A stretch of DNA of 26,105 bases from a virus. The stretch covers positions 1 through 26,105 of IMG/VR virus record IMGVR_UViG_3300017757_000127. One strand, 5' to 3'. Each line of letters starts with the position of its first letter. Positions within the stretch are counted from its first letter, which is position 1. Position numbers and translations under genes: made by a program. The notes under the pieces were generated by a model. The model was not told where the DNA came from. It saw only the letters and a list, made by a program, of their open reading frames with translations, and made no database searches. Positions 17,695 through 25,518 of the stretch are shown here, one piece after another.

Positions 17695-17964
17695 CTATTT
17701 ATTGCTTCTTTTGGCTTTCTGACGCTCTATATAAGCGTTAGCAGCCTTCATGCTTTTACTTGGTTCTTGAGAAACGTGTGTTATCACCGTTGCTTTTCCT
17801 TTAGCTTGACCAACGTTAGCTTTAGAATCTGTAGAAACAGCTCTCTTTGCTCGTTTTTTAATTGCTTTTTTAACACCCGACACAACTCCTTTAGATGTAT
17901 CTACAATATCCTCACCAACCTTTATAGTTGATTTTTTCTTTCTTGTTGTAGCTTTCTTTGCCAT
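17695..17964 (-). CDS. Small Lys/Arg-rich protein upstream of scaffold gene
   Basis: This 89-residue protein starts in a TAATG overlap with the 39-residue Lys-rich gene before it. About 28 percent of residues are Lys or Arg (25 of 89), concentrated at both ends and in 'VKKAIKKRAKRAV' (residues 31-43). The middle is Ser/Thr/Ala-rich. It has no TM segment or signal peptide. I do not recognise a family. Placed between portal and scaffold, it may be an internal head protein or a DNA-binding packaging helper, similar in style to the basic cluster upstream of the terminase. Inference from charge and location only. Confidence 0.6.
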   Translation of the reverse strand: MAKKATTRKKKSTIKVGEDIVDTSKGVVSGVKKAIKKRAKRAVSTDSKANVGQAKGKATVITHVSQEPSKSMKAANAYIERQKAKRSNK

Positions 17965-18087: not shown

Positions 18088-20211
18088 TTATCCTTTTAAA
18101 CGTTCTTTTAATACAGTTTCTTTCATTCTATTTTGATGCCCTTGTTCAGAGCTTTGGGTAAGTCTCTGAGCTTTCATTTGCTCTTCAGACATTTTCATTT
18201 GTTGTTGCTGTTGCATAGCCATTTGCTGACTTTGCATCCTAGACTGCTCCTGCTGTTGCATAGCTTGTGTTTCAGCATCTTGTCGTTCTCTTTCTCTCTT
18301 ACTTATAATTCTTTTTAACTTTCTAATAGCAAAGTCAACATCTTTAGAATCTCTAATAAAATCTAAAGCGTCAGATATTTCTATTTGTTTTGATTGTATT
18401 GCAGCCGATAGCATATCTTGAAACTGTTTCGTCTCGCTTAACATCGGAGGTATAACTTCTATAAATACTCCATAATCCTGCAGGTGCAAGTCAACGTCGT
18501 TTTTAATAAAATCAAAACCTGCATCACCTATTAAAGGAGCAAATATTTCTTTATCGTGACCATAAGTTATTTTAACAAGACCCGCTAAGTTGTTCATTAC
18601 ATCTTCGCTAAATGCGTTAAAAGCTGCGAACATTGGCTCTGTAGATGTCTGAGAGGAGGTTATAGCTGACTGTGTTACCCCTACTGCTTGTGAAGCAGGA
18701 GTGTTACCCATACGCTCTGCATTAATACCCGACACCGCGTTCATTTCCTCATCAATCATTCGGCTAAAAGTAATATACTGCCCAATAGATTGAGAAAGAG
18801 TCATGTCAAACTCGTTAAAGGCTTGACCCGGAGATTGAATCCCGTCTTTTTTAGAGTTGTAAACACCAATACCGGAAGTTTTAAGGTAGTAAAGAACTTC
18901 TTCCATGTTCCAACCTTCGGGAATCATAGAGATGTCATACATAAAACCTTTAGAGCCTGCTCTGTTCATAGCTAGTTGCATGTTATACAACGCTATATTT
19001 TTAAACTTTTGCAAGCCTTTCATTAGATCAACCTTAGAAATGGTTTTACCATTAGAAAAACTATGACAAAGCGAGGAGTAGGAGGGTTTTGTATCGTATA
19101 TATCATCGACACTTCTTGGCATATTCTCCCTAAAACCAAAATTTCGCACCACGCAACCTCCTATTAAAGAACCTTTTCTCCAAGCCTTAATATCTTTTTG
19201 AACACAATCTTTTCCTTTGTAATTGTCTTTAACTTTTTTGTAGTGTTCGTTTCCAAACTTATCTACTGACTTTTTACGCTTTAGCCTTTTATTGTCAAGC
19301 CATTCTGCGTGAAAAACCAATACTTTCATATCGCTACCTGAACCGGTAACGTACTCTAAAGTTGTTTCACTACTATTGTTTAAAAAACTATTAACCTCAC
19401 TAGAACCTGTCGTTTTTATTTCTTCGACTTCTTTTTTTGTAAGGTTGTATATATGCCGAGCATCGGCTAATGGAAGATATTGTATTTCTCCAAACCTCGT
19501 TCCGTCTGATAAAAAATCATCTTTAGAGTTCTCATCAAAAACCATATTTCTTGGGTCAATTCTTCTGTAGCTTGGTAATCCGTTTAGTATTTCTGTTTTT
19601 ACAAAACATCTACCCGTTATTATTAGGTCTTTGTAAACGTCTATCCTAACCATCTCCCACTTGTACTTTCTTATTAAGTACCTAAGCGCAGACTCCATAA
19701 CTAACTCAGATTTTCCCTTGTAGACCATACTCATAAAGTCATCAAGCTCTTCTTCTGTTTCAGGTAGGTTTTCTACAGGAGCAGTAGGTAGTCCCGAAGC
19801 AAATTCTAGTTCTTCTAGGTCTGATTTAATATTCATCTTACCTAACTTCTCGTTTCTAACCTTTAACTTTTCCGCAATAGCGTCCTTGTTTATAGCTTTA
19901 GCTTGAACCTGAAATCCTTTAGCGCTTAATTCTCCAATAAGCGTATCGACCTTAACTCTAATCTTGTTGTAATTAATCCAAATAGCAGGAAGAGTGTCGC
20001 CATTGTCGGATTCTTGCAGAAAGTTTGTTTCTTCGGTAGTTTGAGTTCCATCGTAGAAATCATAAGACTCTTGCATTGTCCTATAGGAGAACTCGTAACG
20101 CCCATCTACAGCGTCATTTATAATTCCCTTGATAAAATCTTTATGCCACTGCTCATCTTTCTTTGAGTCCGGTAAAGTAATATCAGGGTATCCATCCGAA
20201 AATCTACCCAT
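18088..20211 (-). CDS. Portal protein
   Basis: This 707-residue protein lies directly downstream of the large terminase gene, as portals do. The N-terminal part has 'FSYRTMQESYDFYDGTQ' and 'INYNKIRVKVDTLIGELSAK', typical of podophage portal proteins (wing region with the 'y..f..g.Q...........n.i...vd.l.ge' pattern). The centre has 'YRRIDPRNMVFDENSKDD' and 'FRENMPRSVDDI'. A helical section from about residue 480 ('SQSIGQYITFSRMIDEEMNA') fits the stem/channel helices. The last 70 residues are Gln/Met-rich and helical ('QQQEQSRMQSQQMAMQQQQQ'), a long C-terminal barrel or disordered end. Portal dodecamers form the DNA entry vertex and hold the terminase. Confident. Confidence 0.9.
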   Translation of the reverse strand: MGRFSDGYPDITLPDSKKDEQWHKDFIKGIINDAVDGRYEFSYRTMQESYDFYDGTQTTEETNFLQESDNGDTLPAIWINYNKIRVKVDTLIGELSAKGFQVQAKAINKDAIAEKLKVRNEKLGKMNIKSDLEELEFASGLPTAPVENLPETEEELDDFMSMVYKGKSELVMESALRYLIRKYKWEMVRIDVYKDLIITGRCFVKTEILNGLPSYRRIDPRNMVFDENSKDDFLSDGTRFGEIQYLPLADARHIYNLTKKEVEEIKTTGSSEVNSFLNNSSETTLEYVTGSGSDMKVLVFHAEWLDNKRLKRKKSVDKFGNEHYKKVKDNYKGKDCVQKDIKAWRKGSLIGGCVVRNFGFRENMPRSVDDIYDTKPSYSSLCHSFSNGKTISKVDLMKGLQKFKNIALYNMQLAMNRAGSKGFMYDISMIPEGWNMEEVLYYLKTSGIGVYNSKKDGIQSPGQAFNEFDMTLSQSIGQYITFSRMIDEEMNAVSGINAERMGNTPASQAVGVTQSAITSSQTSTEPMFAAFNAFSEDVMNNLAGLVKITYGHDKEIFAPLIGDAGFDFIKNDVDLHLQDYGVFIEVIPPMLSETKQFQDMLSAAIQSKQIEISDALDFIRDSKDVDFAIRKLKRIISKRERERQDAETQAMQQQEQSRMQSQQMAMQQQQQMKMSEEQMKAQRLTQSSEQGHQNRMKETVLKERLKG

Positions 20212-20271: not shown

Positions 20272-22167
20272 TTACTTTTTTACTCTAACAAGTCTGCCGT
20301 TTATTTTCCTAATTCTAGTCTTAGGTAGTGCTTTAGCTATCTCTTCCTTAGAAAAACTTTTTTGATAAGAGTCTTCTAAAGACACTAATAGCCAACCAAA
20401 TGCAATAGCACGGTCAGTGTTGCTTTCTCCATATACGAGAAATTCCTCAAGTAGTTCCTTGTCCGGTATTAAATCGCAAAAATCATCTGTGTAGTGATTA
20501 ATACATCGCTCCATTTCTCTTGTAGACTGAACGGTTTTTCTAACTCCTAGTTGCCTTGACTGTATTTTATTTAGCTTATTTATTGCAACAGGCTCAGGTT
20601 TAAGCAAATGCAAGTATCCTGTGTCCTCATAATGCTTAATCATTCCAAACCTATTATTTTCTATAAGCATCTTTGGAGAGTTGTAGTACAGTAAAGCCAT
20701 AATGGACTGTTCGTAATAATCATTAACTCTTTCAGGTCTGTCCGTATATCCAAAAACAACTTTTGGAGGTCTTGTTCCTTTCTGATGAGAACCTATGTAC
20801 ATAGATAGCTTAGAAGCTCCTTTTTGAACAAAGTCATGGTCAGCAGGGTCACAACCTGCCTCATACTGTAGTGATGAGTTAGGCTCTTCATAGATTACAC
20901 CTTGACCGGATTTATCATAATGAGTGTTTGGCTCAAAGACAACCTTTGGTTCGTTTTGCCGTCCCCACCTAAACCTTCCTATTTTGCTAAAAGAGTTTTT
21001 CTCCTCTAAAGAGCTAAGTTGTTGAGAAATTTTTATCATATTCCCAATACCTGTACCGCCTTTAGATATGAAAGCCTCCTCAGCATACAATGGGTATTGT
21101 TGTTTAAACTCTAAAAGTTTTTTAGCGTTGTCAAGCTTTGAAAGCTTTTCTCTTTCTTTAAGAATCCATTTAACAGAGGCTTTTATATTATCGTTTCCAT
21201 CTTTTTCGGACATAAGACCTGCCCAACCCGGAAAAAAGAACTTGACTAAATCGTATATCTCGTAGTTCTTCCAAAACTCTTTCTGACCTACTCCTACTTT
21301 TGTTTGCTCTCCTGCTGTACCAAACAAAACAGGAATACCAACTCTTTTTGTTTCCTCCATAAGTGTAGGCACTCCCATAGACCAAATTGTTTCTATGTTA
21401 GAAATCTTACCTACCTCATCAACAACCATCTTACCTATCTGCTCTCCTTCAAAACAAGAATCCGTTGGAGCTTTACAGTAAATCTCAGATTCGTTTCCTG
21501 ATAAAGTCCTTTGCCCTAAGTCGTCCTCGTCCTTTCTAGCAAGTACAAACGTTTCCTGTGTTTTAGATGAAAATGGGTGCTTAAGGAACGTTGGTAGCCT
21601 TTCATACATTTGATAAACCTTAGTCATCAAATCTTTGGCTGACGTTTCATCCTTAGATGTCATTCCAACTCTAAAACCTTCTTTGAATAATGCGTCATGT
21701 AAAGAGTCAGAAGCTTGCTTCCAAGAATAACCCCCTCTCCTTCTTTTTACGCATATTACGCCTTGTCCTTGATTGTACTCACCCCATTCACAGCTTTCTA
21801 GTATATGATACCAAATAATATCACTAACTCTAAAGTCCGGTCTAATAAATCCTCCTGAAATATTTTTTATAGAGCAGAAATGATAATAAAAGTACATCTT
21901 ACCCGGAATACCGTCGTGTCCTTTTTCACACCTCCTAAGAAGCTCAAACTCCCATTTTTTCTTGAGAAGGTCGTTAGAGAATTTTATCTGAACGCCTTTG
22001 CTGTCGTAAAACTTATTATTGTTCCAATGTCTTTTGTAGACACCTTTAGTCCAACGAGGAAAATATTTTTGGGCTTCCTTGACGTAATTATCAATATCCT
22101 CTTCTGACTTTATTTTTGGTAGGTCGTAATACTGATACTTCCAACCGCTGTTAACTTGAAAGTTCAT
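20272..22167 (-). CDS. Terminase large subunit (TerL)
   Basis: The 631 residues hold both terminase domains. The ATPase half shows a Walker A-like segment 'VKRRRGGYSWK' (140-150), off the classic GxxxxGK[ST] form, and Walker B 'MVVDEVGK' (247-254, D250/E251). 'YPLYAEEAFISKGG' (358-371) marks the domain border usual in TerL. The nuclease half (RNase H fold) has 'GCDPADHD' (438-445, first acidic residue D440), 'LIENN' (501-505) and 'TDRAIAFG' (584-591, D585). TerL pumps DNA into the head through the portal and cuts the concatemer. It overlaps the candidate small subunit gene by 17 bp and is followed by the portal. Confident. Confidence 0.95.
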   Translation of the reverse strand: MNFQVNSGWKYQYYDLPKIKSEEDIDNYVKEAQKYFPRWTKGVYKRHWNNNKFYDSKGVQIKFSNDLLKKKWEFELLRRCEKGHDGIPGKMYFYYHFCSIKNISGGFIRPDFRVSDIIWYHILESCEWGEYNQGQGVICVKRRRGGYSWKQASDSLHDALFKEGFRVGMTSKDETSAKDLMTKVYQMYERLPTFLKHPFSSKTQETFVLARKDEDDLGQRTLSGNESEIYCKAPTDSCFEGEQIGKMVVDEVGKISNIETIWSMGVPTLMEETKRVGIPVLFGTAGEQTKVGVGQKEFWKNYEIYDLVKFFFPGWAGLMSEKDGNDNIKASVKWILKEREKLSKLDNAKKLLEFKQQYPLYAEEAFISKGGTGIGNMIKISQQLSSLEEKNSFSKIGRFRWGRQNEPKVVFEPNTHYDKSGQGVIYEEPNSSLQYEAGCDPADHDFVQKGASKLSMYIGSHQKGTRPPKVVFGYTDRPERVNDYYEQSIMALLYYNSPKMLIENNRFGMIKHYEDTGYLHLLKPEPVAINKLNKIQSRQLGVRKTVQSTREMERCINHYTDDFCDLIPDKELLEEFLVYGESNTDRAIAFGWLLVSLEDSYQKSFSKEEIAKALPKTRIRKINGRLVRVKK

Positions 22168-22693
22168 CTTTCATTCTTTTAGTTTCCATATACAACTCTA
22201 GCGCTGTTTTAGGAGTTCCTTCTTCGTCTGATTCAAACTTCTCTCTGTATCCAACTATCTCTTCTAGTTCTTTAATTTTCTTGGCGTGAGACGGCATATC
22301 TTTGAAAATCTTAACAGCCCTGTCAGCCTCCTTCTCTGTCTTATTGTTTTTCTTTAAGACCTCCCTCCATTCAGCCATCCGTGCCTTCATAGCTATTAAA
22401 GACTCCATATCTTCATCGTACTGAATTTCTATGTATTTAGCTATCCCTTTTTTCAGGGCGCTCTTATACCTACTAAAGAAAGTACCTATGGTGGACTTGT
22501 TTACATATTCTAGCGATATTAAAACCTGCTCTTTTCGCTGTTCAAACGGAAGACGTGAGTAGGGAGAGAAGTAATCGTACATCAAGACTATGTACTTCAT
22601 AACCTTGTCTGTACAGTCATTAAACTCGGGTATAGCGTCAATGCTATCGTTTACCTCTCTTATTTTTTTTCCGTGAACTACTCTAAAAATCAT
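22151..22693 (-). CDS. Candidate small terminase subunit
   Basis: This 180-residue, mainly helical protein starts in an ATGA overlap with a TM protein gene and its end overlaps the TerL start by 17 bp. The first half has 'DKVMKYIVLMYDYFSPYS' and 'LPFEQRKEQVLISLEYVN', the second half a long charged helix ('ESLIAMKARMAEWREVLKKN') and an acidic end ('FESDEEGTPKTALELYMETK'). No helix-turn-helix is obvious. I call it a candidate TerS because it is small, helical and translationally linked to TerL, the usual place for the DNA-recognition subunit. I have no motif-level proof, and similar proteins in related phages may simply be unannotated. Confidence 0.5.
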   Translation of the reverse strand: MIFRVVHGKKIREVNDSIDAIPEFNDCTDKVMKYIVLMYDYFSPYSRLPFEQRKEQVLISLEYVNKSTIGTFFSRYKSALKKGIAKYIEIQYDEDMESLIAMKARMAEWREVLKKNNKTEKEADRAVKIFKDMPSHAKKIKELEEIVGYREKFESDEEGTPKTALELYMETKRMKDELSS

Positions 22694-22986
22694 TTCTTTA
22701 CCGTGTGGAATATTTGTTTAGACCAAGACCAAGCAATATCTAGCTTGCAGATATTTATGATTGCGTAAACAATAACCATTGGAATAATCGGCACTAACAG
22801 AAACCAAAAAGATGTTTTGGCTTTTTTTGTCGGAATGCTTTTGTAGAAATATTTTAACCTGTTAGACAGAGAGAGGGAAAGAAATTTTCGTTTCTCATCA
22901 TTTAATTGATAAATCTTCTCCTTTCTAATTTGGTCTTCACCATTGGTAGCTAGTCGAGCTAGCGTTCTTGCTTGTTTTCTATCCAT
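22690..22986 (-). CDS. Small single-TM protein upstream of terminase genes
   Basis: This 98-residue protein has a charged N-terminal half ('NGEDQIRKEKIYQLNDEKRK', about 15-34) and one strong membrane segment at about residues 60-79 ('FWFLLVPIIPMVIVYAIINI'), followed by a short aromatic/basic tail ending 'HTVKK'. Its stop overlaps the start of the candidate TerS in an ATGA junction. A membrane protein among head genes is unusual. It could be a holin or inhibitor of superinfection, or help assembly at the membrane. The sequence alone does not tell. Confidence 0.6.
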   Translation of the reverse strand: MDRKQARTLARLATNGEDQIRKEKIYQLNDEKRKFLSLSLSNRLKYFYKSIPTKKAKTSFWFLLVPIIPMVIVYAIINICKLDIAWSWSKQIFHTVKK

Positions 22987-23014: not shown

Positions 23015-23272
23015 TTATTTCATTGACTTTTTGCCTCTACACTTCCACTTCTTTCTTGACAAAGCGTTAGCGCATGGCGGTTTTTTACACTTTTTAATCT
23101 TAGCAGACCTAGCACAATAAGCATCGCCTTTTTTAGTTCCGGGTCGAATCCTGTCTCCACCGCTTTTAGCTTTTCCTGCTTGACCATAAGAGACTTTTCT
23201 TGTCCTACCGGATTTAGTCTTTACTACTTTTACAAATCTTTTTCCTTTAGATGGTTTTTTCTTGGTAGCCAT
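23015..23272 (-). CDS. Basic four-cysteine miniprotein
   Basis: This 85-residue protein is about 38 percent Lys plus Arg (32 of 85). The first half is a lysine-rich arm. Residues about 26-46 read 'KVSYGQAGKAKSGGDRIRPG' and then 'KKGDAYCARS' and 'LSRKKWKCRGKK'. I recall short marine-phage proteins with a similar 'RkV.yG..g.......pGt.kGdaYCaRs......nplSrk.WkC.gkks' pattern; they are uncharacterised. Four cysteines (53, 62, 67, 78) could bind zinc. It starts 4 bp from the end of the previous basic gene. Nucleic-acid binding is the natural guess but unproven. Confidence 0.65.
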   Translation of the reverse strand: MATKKKPSKGKRFVKVVKTKSGRTRKVSYGQAGKAKSGGDRIRPGTKKGDAYCARSAKIKKCKKPPCANALSRKKWKCRGKKSMK

Positions 23273-23276
23273 ATAA

Positions 23277-23594
23277 TTATTTTTTAGTTGTACGCTTTCG
23301 TTTTCTTACAGTGCTATTCTTTCCATTCCTAGCTCTGTTCTTACTTGCTTTTTCCATACCTCTAAAACCTTTGCCACCTGACTTGTGTGAAGCGTCTAAA
23401 CCGTCTCCATTACCGTAAGTACCTTTTTTTCTGTTGTAGGCATTTGCTTCTACTCGTTTCTTAACTGACGACTTTTTTTTGTTATACTTTTTGTCGTACT
23501 CGGCTTTCTTTTTTCTAGCGTCAGGATTAGCGGCATAATATTTTGCACTCTTAGAGCTGCCTGTTCTTTTGCCTGCTAATTTATTCCTCGCCAT
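23277..23594 (-). CDS. Basic miniprotein with degenerate HNH-like motif
   Basis: This 105-residue protein is about 34 percent Lys plus Arg (36 of 105). An N-terminal segment 'GKRTGSSKSAKYYAANPDAR' leads into 'KKKAEYDKKYNKKK'. The C-terminal third has 'GTYGNGDGLDASHKSGG' and 'KASKNRARNGKN'. The order 'gDG.D.SH..gG.......S.NRarNg' is typical of a short family in marine phages and is reminiscent of the H...N core of HNH nucleases, but here only one histidine and late asparagines remain. I take this as a similarity seen by eye. It is part of the five-gene short-protein run, 6 bp after the next gene upstream. Confidence 0.65.
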   Translation of the reverse strand: MARNKLAGKRTGSSKSAKYYAANPDARKKKAEYDKKYNKKKSSVKKRVEANAYNRKKGTYGNGDGLDASHKSGGKGFRGMEKASKNRARNGKNSTVRKRKRTTKK

Positions 23595-23600
23595 AATAAT

Positions 23601-23825
23601 TTATTTTACACCACAAGATAGGGATTTATCCTTTTCCTTGGTAAGATACACTGTGGGCATATCAAAAACTCTTTCTGCTTTTTTTATTTTGTAGCCCTTG
23701 TCAAAATGTTTGTCAAGAAAAACAACAAAGTCATTAATTTTGCGAAATACAATTCTCATAGTCATATCTCGCCCATCGGGATGAACGACATTGATTATTC
23801 TTCTTTTGTATTTTGCCTTAGACAT
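23601..23825 (-). CDS. Hypothetical 74-residue protein in the basic cluster
   Basis: I choose the ATG at 23825 (starts 'MSKAKYKRRIINVV'), which lies 4 bp after the upstream stop; an in-frame ATG at 23867 would overlap the upstream gene by 38 bp. The product is less extreme in charge than its neighbours and looks folded: strand-rich 'INVVHPDGRDMTMRIVF', a helix 'KINDFVVFLDKHFDKGY' and strands 'FDMPTVYLTKEK'. This could be a compact alpha/beta domain. I do not recognise it. It might be a structured partner within the cluster. Confidence 0.6.
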   Translation of the reverse strand: MSKAKYKRRIINVVHPDGRDMTMRIVFRKINDFVVFLDKHFDKGYKIKKAERVFDMPTVYLTKEKDKSLSCGVK

Positions 23826-23829
23826 TTTT

Positions 23830-24072
23830 CTATCGCTTCTTGTTTTTATGTAGTCCGTGCTTTGCATGTTGTTTACCTTTTTTGGTAGCGTTTCTTTTTA
23901 TTCTATTAGCGTTAGCTAATTTTTTTTTACCTGCTTTTGTGCTTTTAAGCTTGGAAATGGTAGCAGAGGGAGCATAAACCTCCCCTGTCTTAGAAGATTT
24001 CTTTCCCGAAGCTGTTCTCCATTTCTGCTTTGTCCACTTAACTAAACTCTTTTGTCTTTTAGTCCTAGCCAT
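23830..24072 (-). CDS. Basic miniprotein with 'W.TkSGKkSs.TGE' motif
   Basis: This 80-residue protein is 35 percent Lys plus Arg (28 of 80). It starts 'MARTKRQKSLVKWTKQKW' and continues 'TASGKKSSKTGEVYAPSATI', ending in 'KRNATKKGKQHAKHGLHKNK'. The pattern 'kWt.qkW.T.SGk.S..TGE.Y.P...i..L........Kr..t..GKQ' is, from memory, an uncharacterised short family of marine phages and large DNA viruses. It is the second gene of the basic cluster, 5 bp downstream of the 62-residue gene. Charge suggests nucleic-acid contact; function unknown. Confidence 0.65.
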   Translation of the reverse strand: MARTKRQKSLVKWTKQKWRTASGKKSSKTGEVYAPSATISKLKSTKAGKKKLANANRIKRNATKKGKQHAKHGLHKNKKR

Positions 24073-24077
24073 AATGT

Positions 24078-24266
24078 TTATTTTTTAGTCTTGTATCCAC
24101 CTCCTTTAGCTTTGTACTGCTTGGCAAGCATTTGCGCTTTCCTTGCAGACCACTGCCCGGGATTACCACCCTTTGAGCCTGCCTTGATTGAATTGAACAG
24201 CCTTTTTCTCATTGTAGGCTTTGTGTAGTTTCCTGATTTATTTACAGTACTCTTTTTAGACTTCAT
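24078..24266 (-). CDS. Basic miniprotein with 'GQWSARKAQ' motif
   Basis: This 62-residue protein has 18 Lys/Arg. Residues about 28-60 read 'KAGSKGGNPGQWSARKAQ' followed by 'MLAKQYKAKGGGYK'. The 'skGG.pGqWSaRKAQ..a..Yk..GGgY' pattern is one I remember from uncharacterised proteins of several phages and large viruses, sometimes as a domain in longer proteins. Here it stands nearly alone after an N-terminal basic arm. It heads the five-gene run of short proteins. Conservation of Trp, Ser and the GGG end suggests a specific fold or binding surface rather than random basic sequence. Function unknown. Confidence 0.65.
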   Translation of the reverse strand: MKSKKSTVNKSGNYTKPTMRKRLFNSIKAGSKGGNPGQWSARKAQMLAKQYKAKGGGYKTKK

Positions 24267-24305
24267 AACTAAACATTTATGACCTTAATATACGAAAATT
24301 GTTGC

Positions 24306-24553: not shown

Positions 24554-24985
24554 CTATTTATTTAATGGTCCTAATGTTGCTGAATTAACTTCTACCTTAG
24601 CATCTGTAGCTACAAAATCTTCAGGCTTGGCTCCATCTCTGTAAACTCCAAGAACCCAATTCTGAAAAACCTGTGAATACATAGTTGTGTTTCCTTTGTC
24701 GTCCTTCATAATCAAAGGATAACCTGTTTGCTGACCTAAGATTACAAAGTCTCCCGGACGTACATTGGCGCACTCAGGACCTACCTTCAAAACCTCATAC
24801 GCTAGATCATCTTCCGTAATGGAAGCCGCGCCTTGTTTAGCAGCTTCAGGAATTAATATACCCGAATCTGTAACGTCCTTAACTTCGTGCATCTTCACCA
24901 CAATACCATCGTGTAGTGGGTTGTAACTCTTTAATGTTTGGTTATAGCCATTGTGCTTAATACCAACTAATGAATACTTACTCAT
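24554..24985 (-). CDS. GroES-like co-chaperonin
   Basis: This 143-residue protein carries the Cpn10 signature with an N-terminal extension of about 20 residues. 'NPLHDGIVVKMHEV' (22-35) matches the family's RPLhDrviVk start. 'TDSGILIPEAA' (39-49) is the mobile loop, with 'GIL' (42-44) as the hydrophobic tripeptide that docks on GroEL. 'YEVLKVGPECANVRPGDFVI' (about 63-82) is the conserved V..VG......v..GD.Vi strand pair. Phage GroES analogues (T4 gp31 is the known case) replace or retune the host lid so GroEL can fold a capsid protein. No GroEL gene is in the window. Early place in the head operon fits capsid folding. Confident of family, role inferred. Confidence 0.85.
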   Translation of the reverse strand: MSKYSLVGIKHNGYNQTLKSYNPLHDGIVVKMHEVKDVTDSGILIPEAAKQGAASITEDDLAYEVLKVGPECANVRPGDFVILGQQTGYPLIMKDDKGNTTMYSQVFQNWVLGVYRDGAKPEDFVATDAKVEVNSATLGPLNK

Positions 24986-25211: not shown

Positions 25212-25466
25212 TTAACCCCTCTTTAAGTACAAATTATCCAAACCATCACCCTTATCAGGGTTTATCCAATACACACGGTCATTCTTCTTTGTCTCTAAAA
25301 ACATCTTAGCTACCAAATTTTTTACTCTATACATCTTACCCGACAAATTAACAAAACGGCTACCGGTATTCATAATCTTATTATGCCTGTTCTTTATTCT
25401 GCCAAGAGATGACACCGAATAATCACCATAAGGAATCCAAACCTCAACCTTAGTTATATCTATCAT
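25212..25466 (-). CDS. NUMOD4/HNH-like protein lacking HNH histidines, first gene of operon
   Basis: I start at the ATG at 25466 (84 residues); a TTG at 25502 would place the coding sequence over the operator-like repeats. The N-terminus 'VEVWIPYGDYSVSSLGRIKN' (7-26) has the NUMOD4 form (W.pi..Y.vSnlGRi.n), a DNA-binding module of homing-type HNH nucleases. 'YRVKNLVAKMF' (46-56) follows as the vh.LVA..F strand-helix. In HNH_3 proteins a '.NHiDGdk.nN...NL' block comes next; here it reads 'YWINPDKGDGLDNLYL' (66-81), without the histidines, and the protein ends. So a nuclease is unlikely and a DNA-binding or relic protein more likely. It is the first gene behind the candidate promoter, so a regulator is a fair guess. 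Confidence 0.65.
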   Translation of the reverse strand: MIDITKVEVWIPYGDYSVSSLGRIKNRHNKIMNTGSRFVNLSGKMYRVKNLVAKMFLETKKNDRVYWINPDKGDGLDNLYLKRG

Positions 25467-25518
25467 TTCTATAAACCTTAAAACTATAACTGTAAATAAC
25501 AACCCCTTATAGCATTTC

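Follow-up and report, generated by a model that had tools for sequence, protein, structure and literature searches.

Several families of very small, highly basic proteins adjoin one another in many unrelated aquatic phages, and together they probably represent a common toolkit that handles or accompanies phage DNA during packaging. The window analyzed here, a complete IMG/VR record of 26,105 bp, carries a cassette of this kind, which is thus more general than a single phage. We tentatively read it, at somewhat short of probable, as an island of late genes, mosaic in its make-up, whose basic products work on the phage DNA while it is packaged and may end up in the head. The features referred to below are the following:

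p5: 24078-24266, minus strand; 62 aa; N-terminal half of the DUF5872 domain, GQWSARKAQ motif; phrog_17747, E 4e-36
p4: 23830-24072, minus strand; 80 aa; C-terminal half of the DUF5872 domain, SGKkSsKTGE motif; phrog_14910, E 2e-14
p3: 23601-23825, minus strand; 74 aa; outside the basic families; phrog_18583, E 0.018
p2: 23277-23594, minus strand; 105 aa; apparently a shortened relative of HNH_3-type small proteins; phrog_6437, E 6e-25
p1: 23015-23272, minus strand; 85 aa; DUF6321 relative, YCARS...LSRKKWKC motif
indel segment: 23826-24283, minus strand; 458 bp, exactly p5 plus p4; the closest relative has about 9 bp instead (L331, 8336-8344)
membrane-type gene: 22690-22986, minus strand; 98 aa, one likely membrane helix; between p1 and the terminase; without family match
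candidate small terminase: 22151-22693, minus strand; 180 aa; named only from its position just upstream of the large terminase; without family match
large terminase (TerL): 20272-22167, minus strand; phrog_6681, E 7e-60
portal protein: 18088-20211, minus strand; phrog_6547, E 1e-92
extra basic mini-gene: 17695-17964, minus strand; 89 aa, K+R 28%, net charge +19; directly after the portal gene

The five ORFs of the run all lie on the minus strand and are transcribed in the order p5, p4, p3, p2, p1, with intergenic gaps of 5, 4, 6, and 4 bp, in agreement with an initial annotation of this DNA that had described five ORFs of these sizes separated by 4-6 bp. The same annotation had assigned a Lys plus Arg (K+R) content of 29-38% to four of the five products, and the recomputed values (p5 29%, p4 35%, p2 34%, and p1 38%) bear this out, p3 being the exception with 26%. 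Net charges are +30 for p1, +27 for p4, +29 for p2, and +18 for p5, with a milder +10 for p3. Among the window's 32 likely genes, p1, p4, p2, and p5 rank first to fourth for K+R, and outside the run only the product of 17695-17964 reaches 0.28; this product had no match in Pfam and is possibly a further member of the basic set. The run had been placed right before the packaging genes. It is indeed nearby, but the 98-aa and 180-aa genes separate p1 from TerL. Upstream of p5 are an 81-aa gene and a GroES-like co-chaperonin gene (24554-24985, minus strand; PF00166, E 4e-7), which heads the cassette, and at 25212-25502 (minus strand) there is a small protein with a sub-threshold match (E 0.0013) to NUMOD4, a homing endonuclease motif. 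The p3 ORF could begin at 23867, while its MSK start is backed by the close relative L331; clear relatives of p3 were not found beyond this closest contig. TerL has distant relatives among the large terminases of crAss-like and Flavobacterium phages, which points to Bacteroidetes as the probable hosts of this phage.

None of the five window proteins had a match in Pfam or NCBIfam when searched individually, and no DNA-level relatives of the window were found among phages. In PHROGs, p5, p4, and p2 fall into three separate families. Searches with TBLASTN located p5 and p4 in one shared group of phages (pelagi-, roseo-, and HMO-2011-type) and p5 additionally in Methylophilales phages. Matches to p2 came from T7-like cyanophages, and those to p1 from Vibrio phages, S-TIM5-type cyanophages, and roseophages. 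Scans of viral contigs gave hundreds of relatives for each basic family. Each motif thus occurs in other marine viruses, in agreement with the initial annotation, and the basic proteins constitute conserved families whose motifs are near-invariant across hosts. The possibility that the five genes are paralogues was rejected, as they have no mutual similarity. The initial annotation had also held the proteins to be mutually distinct; there are no copies among the four basic ones, but p5 and p4 are halves of one domain. A search of PDB sequences with DUF5872, p1, and p2 profiles produced no credible match; SUMO hits obtained with p1 (best E 0.0017) were judged to be due to low complexity.

We assessed whether the families cluster using 240 loci that were collected by p5 or p4 only. 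The 832 kb of flank lying no more than 2 kb from p5-p4 held 32 p1- or p2-type genes, all on the same strand, whereas the 1,535 kb lying 2-10 kb away held none. The difference persisted after removal of redundancy (18 vs 0, binomial P 7e-9; P values in this work are only partly corrected for contig relatedness and gene calls are longest-ORF approximations) and when the search was anchored reciprocally on p1 (12 vs 0) or p2 (9 vs 0). Two other contigs (L023 and L045) have all four types together, and the isolates HTVC033P, HTVC035P, and S-CRES1 have mixtures of the families. The set is also carried by the cultured phages HMO-2011, MEP401, and CRP-13. Thus, the motifs recur beyond this phage as a tight same-strand cassette, as would be expected from the unit originally proposed. 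Carriage is patchy, with p1 and p2 absent from most p5-p4 loci. The p5-p4 pair prefers the upstream side of TerL: of 30 contigs, 16 had a TerL gene (PF03237) no more than 3 kb downstream of p4 and in the same orientation, compared to 2.5 expected under uniform placement. With p1 and p2, TerL likewise shared the strand wherever it was found, though the distance was mostly 4-15 kb.

The neighborhood is also enriched for further basic mini-proteins. Of the small genes near p5-p4 that share its strand and belong to none of the four families, 25% had a K+R of at least 0.25, compared to 7.7% at 3-10 kb. In a paired test of basicity on dissimilar loci, 30 of 35 were positive (p 3e-5), vs 44 of 84 control anchors. 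The paired effect was clear around p2 (p 0.001); around p1 the means did not differ significantly (p 0.21), and very basic genes made up a larger fraction there (p 0.009). The idea of a set of basic mini-proteins is supported to this extent; it falls short in that p2 is HNH-related. As p5 and p4 together are one split domain and p2 has HNH ancestry, the set does not consist simply of polycations.

The closest relative of the window is a 128.7-kb contig with a TerL that is 95% identical. This contig keeps p3, p2, and p1 in the order of the window, with 9 bp in place of the 458-bp p5-p4 segment, and the DNA around the indel is 81-88% identical between the two (BLASTN). We did not find p5 elsewhere in the record of this relative. 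The exactness of the indel indicates that p5-p4 was acquired or lost as one unit.

Sequence comparisons show that a single DUF5872 domain is divided between p5 and p4. Both genes were present in 165 fetched viral loci, on the same strand and with p5 first in 164 of them, and usually overlapped or had a short gap between them. A scan of 84,980 species genomes gave 80 loci. A single ORF holds the p5 and p4 parts in 30 of these 80 genome-assembly loci (domain E 1e-10 to 1e-27), in the order p5-p4 in 26 (Acidobacteria, Spirosoma, Hymenobacter, Fibrella, Rubrobacter, and others) and in the permuted order p4-p5 in four, from Pelagibacteraceae. Fused phage forms occur in S-CRES1 and Hodr. Fused homologues in which the p5 and p4 domains were both clearly hit match the DUF5872 model (PF19197) with E values from approximately 1e-5 to 5e-2; those of L391 and L407 (E ~1e-5) and L403 (2e-4) score slightly below its curated cut-off of 27.5 bits. 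Window p5 and then p4 cover the domain known from giant viruses and bacteria as PF19197. In comparison with that family, the domain here and in most of the aquatic phages seen is more basic and is split in two adjacent genes. Since the window encodes it not as one polypeptide but as two genes with a 5-bp gap, we refer to the pair as a split DUF5872 rather than as a standard member. A toxin-antitoxin relationship between p4 and p5 was rejected, as both are basic and they are fused elsewhere.

Some cellular DUF5872 proteins have Lys/Ala/Pro-rich (H1-like) tails, and those of L403 and L407 have Rho_N or SAP-like domains. These additions are our best hint of a role involving nucleic acids. On the other hand, several of the cellular cores have balanced charges (K+R 0.23, D+E 0.24), and DNA condensation is therefore not intrinsic to the DUF5872 fold. 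AlphaFold2 confidently predicted a helical structure for the fused L391 protein from a 45-row alignment (pLDDT 91, pTM 0.64; rows from phage records were left out of the structure-prediction alignments). The model shows an ordered fold, which speaks against a generic polycation, as do the charge-neutral cellular proteins. Neither the DUF5872 model nor that of p1 had a PDB match of note with Foldseek or VIA-align, and a BFVD search returned uncharacterised viral relatives only. One BFVD entry, A0A6J5PCY7, has a p5-like region within a 1022-aa phage protein named ParB/Sulfiredoxin, and is possibly another link of DUF5872 to DNA. The circularly permuted forms, with the p4 half before the p5 half, belong to SAR11 loci (L393, L397, L404, and L411). 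In L397 the gene adjoins SDR, TspO, DAO, DUF1365, cyclopropane-fatty-acid synthase, and DUF3833 genes, and we take the TspO/DUF1365/cyclopropane-fatty-acid synthase/DUF3833 neighbor set of SAR11 to be of the kind found in light- or oxidative-stress operons. In another Pelagibacteraceae assembly (L378, 4331-6407), a T7-like TerL overlaps p5, which is followed by p4; this region is probably a prophage or a phage within the assembly.

The C-terminal half of p1 aligned with DUF6321 in a profile comparison (hhalign probability 97.7, E 2e-12, 36 columns), and the C-terminal motif of DUF6321, consisting of two Cys and a Trp, is present in p1. The gp65 protein of S-TIM5 bridges the two, as it matches both p1 and DUF6321 (E 0.0013). 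The (F/Y)CARSxG...DPNS...RRWKC motif is common to p1 and DUF6321 (PF19846), which is found in T4-like cyanophages and pelagiphages. Because window p1 had no match to the PF19846 model, and only one of 12 close homologues did (E 0.02), we filed p1 as a DUF6321 relative and not as a member. It also differs from DUF6321 in its N-terminal half (SYGQAGKAK), and is an 85-aa protein that stands alone, whereas in T4-like cyanophages the domain forms the end of proteins of 376-815 aa. Stand-alone DUF6321 occurs in pelagiphages, such as HTVC033P (E 2e-24), and the domain was found in 498 phage records altogether. A structure model of p1 had fair confidence (pLDDT 85).

In T4-like cyanophages, genes for DUF6321 proteins are located between those of the small terminase (TerS) and TerL in S-CREM2 (gp137) and B23 (gp266), and upstream of TerL in P-TIM68 and S-SCSM1 (S-SCSM1_29). 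S-CREM2 ORF137 was detected by mass spectrometry in CsCl-purified virions, with four unique peptides and 4.1% coverage (PMC10665884). The S-SCSM1 virion proteome was measured as well (PMC9602691), and S-SCSM1_29, with DUF6321 at 445-515 (E 3e-22), is annotated as "virion protein" in its record. This virion evidence covers DUF6321 relatives of 490 and 517 aa, which have only the C-terminal domain in common with p1. The papers on S-EIV1 and S-CRES1, two phages with DUF5872 proteins, give no virion proteome for these proteins.

Window p2 did not match HNH_3 (PF13392) at E values up to 10. Relatives of p2 such as those in L290, L272, L090, and L045 did, and p2-type and HNH-type sequences aligned over 62 columns (hhalign probability 95.1, E 3e-8). 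The D..H and the terminal NR are kept in p2 and the central N-rich segment is absent, from which we infer that p2 is a truncated HNH protein; the missing segment makes nuclease activity doubtful. The packaging-region setting of p2 is shared with HNH_3 small phage proteins and with packaging HNH proteins of the HK97 gp74 type, which differ from p2 in having that segment. HK97 gp74 boosts cos cleavage by TerL (PMC9410871).

These observations are consistent with an island that would be a mosaic of highly basic mini-proteins in the late part of the genomes of aquatic tailed phages, often near the terminase. Late transcription from the GroES-like gene toward the terminase and portal genes would result in the basic proteins being made alongside the packaging machinery. 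Together, p4 and p5 would form one two-chain DUF5872 domain, while p1 and p2 may contribute other DNA-binding surfaces. Binding to phage DNA is suggested by the charge of the products, by the H1-like tails and SAP/Rho_N domains of cellular DUF5872 proteins, and by the HNH ancestry of p2. The products may then act during packaging and, at least in part, accompany the DNA into the head; there they would neutralise or organise it and perhaps be co-injected. For a genome the size of the 128.7-kb relative, with about 257,000 phosphates, neutralisation of 10% would take about 1,000 copies of proteins with a charge near +26. A stronger form of this reading, which we consider doubtful, is that many aquatic tailed phages have a modular "nucleoid kit" in which exchangeable, unrelated basic mini-proteins, among them a two-piece DUF5872 protein also found in bacteria and giant viruses, coat the genome in the head and help to compact it. 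If true, this would contradict the idea that cations and polyamines alone neutralise the DNA of tailed phages. We know of no phage that gives such basic mini-proteins the task of handling or accompanying DNA at packaging. Small or basic proteins thought to neutralise packaged DNA are encoded by other dsDNA viruses (adenovirus core proteins, baculovirus P6.9, chlorovirus A278L/A282L), but we saw no sequence relation between these and the window proteins. Phages are held not to rely on DNA-condensing proteins of this sort, and no large share in the neutralisation of phage DNA is known for basic proteins (PMC3281028). It also counts against a role in packaging or the head that sequence and fold searches found no structural relative of known function.

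The main rival to packaging-associated DNA binding, unlikely in our judgment, is that the region is an accessory hotspot between lysis and packaging genes, occupied by small accessory genes of unrelated kinds (counter-defence genes, homing relics, morons) that have an address in common but not a task. The gain or loss of p5-p4 as a unit, the patchy presence of the families, the HNH ancestry of p2, and the variation in neighbors between phages all agree with this. While a hotspot accounts for the mosaicism, it does not account for the enrichment in basic proteins, as it fails to explain why unrelated neighbors are specifically basic; moreover, the p5-p4 pair is conserved in strand and order, and the same three families recur together. 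At the other extreme, Lys-rich ORFs could arise from A-rich DNA by compositional accident and have no common role, as the presence of another Lys-rich gene elsewhere in the window (17695-17964) might suggest. Conserved families with near-invariant motifs across hosts contradict this, as do the clustering and the matched controls, and we find it barely credible.

Alternatively, the proteins may be directed at the host, where they would coat, condense, or silence the chromosome or ribosomes in the course of takeover, with DUF5872 having been derived from a host stress or nucleoid protein. The Lys/Ala/Pro tails and Rho_N/SAP domains of bacterial DUF5872 proteins are in line with this, as are the neighbors of the SAR11 gene, presumably a stress-operon set. 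We nevertheless regard it as rather improbable, since the genes sit among late lysis and packaging genes and not among early genes, and DUF6321 proteins are found in virions. Their presence in mature virions is likewise at odds with the set being an accessory to the packaging enzyme that aids the terminase in end cleavage, motor loading, or DNA clamping and stays out of the virion. The relationship of p2 to HNH proteins, with HK97 gp74 as a precedent in cos cleavage by TerL (PMC9410871), the DUF6321 genes between TerS and TerL, and the overlap of p5 with the end of the T7-like TerL in L378 would fit such an accessory. However, p2 lacks the middle N-rich HNH segment and may be inactive, and we consider this explanation quite improbable.

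In line with the claim that the unit had not been described before, we found no description of it in the literature searched, where DUF5872 is mentioned in one paper and DUF6321 in none. As far as this literature shows, the unit and the split DUF5872 are undescribed, while their parts belong to or border known families that are so far on record only as DUFs or unnamed PHROGs. Viewing them as a unit turns several hundred hypothetical genes of abundant marine phages into one testable question, namely whether basic proteins are packaged with the DNA of tailed phages, and the split and fused forms of DUF5872 provide a ready test of a protein-protein partnership. In another contig (L137, 9408-10616), five basic mini-genes occur in direct succession, two of which are p5 and p4. 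Two further families are present in this run, one of the KKGKAAAKKAKSGSKKF type and the other a Cys/Lys-rich 49-mer. In two T4-like cyanophages, S-SCSM1 (L420, 6936-7157) and P-TIM68 (L415, 5893-6123), TerL is followed, directly or at a short distance, by a gene for a small Cys-rich protein of the ECRxCG...CKxC type.
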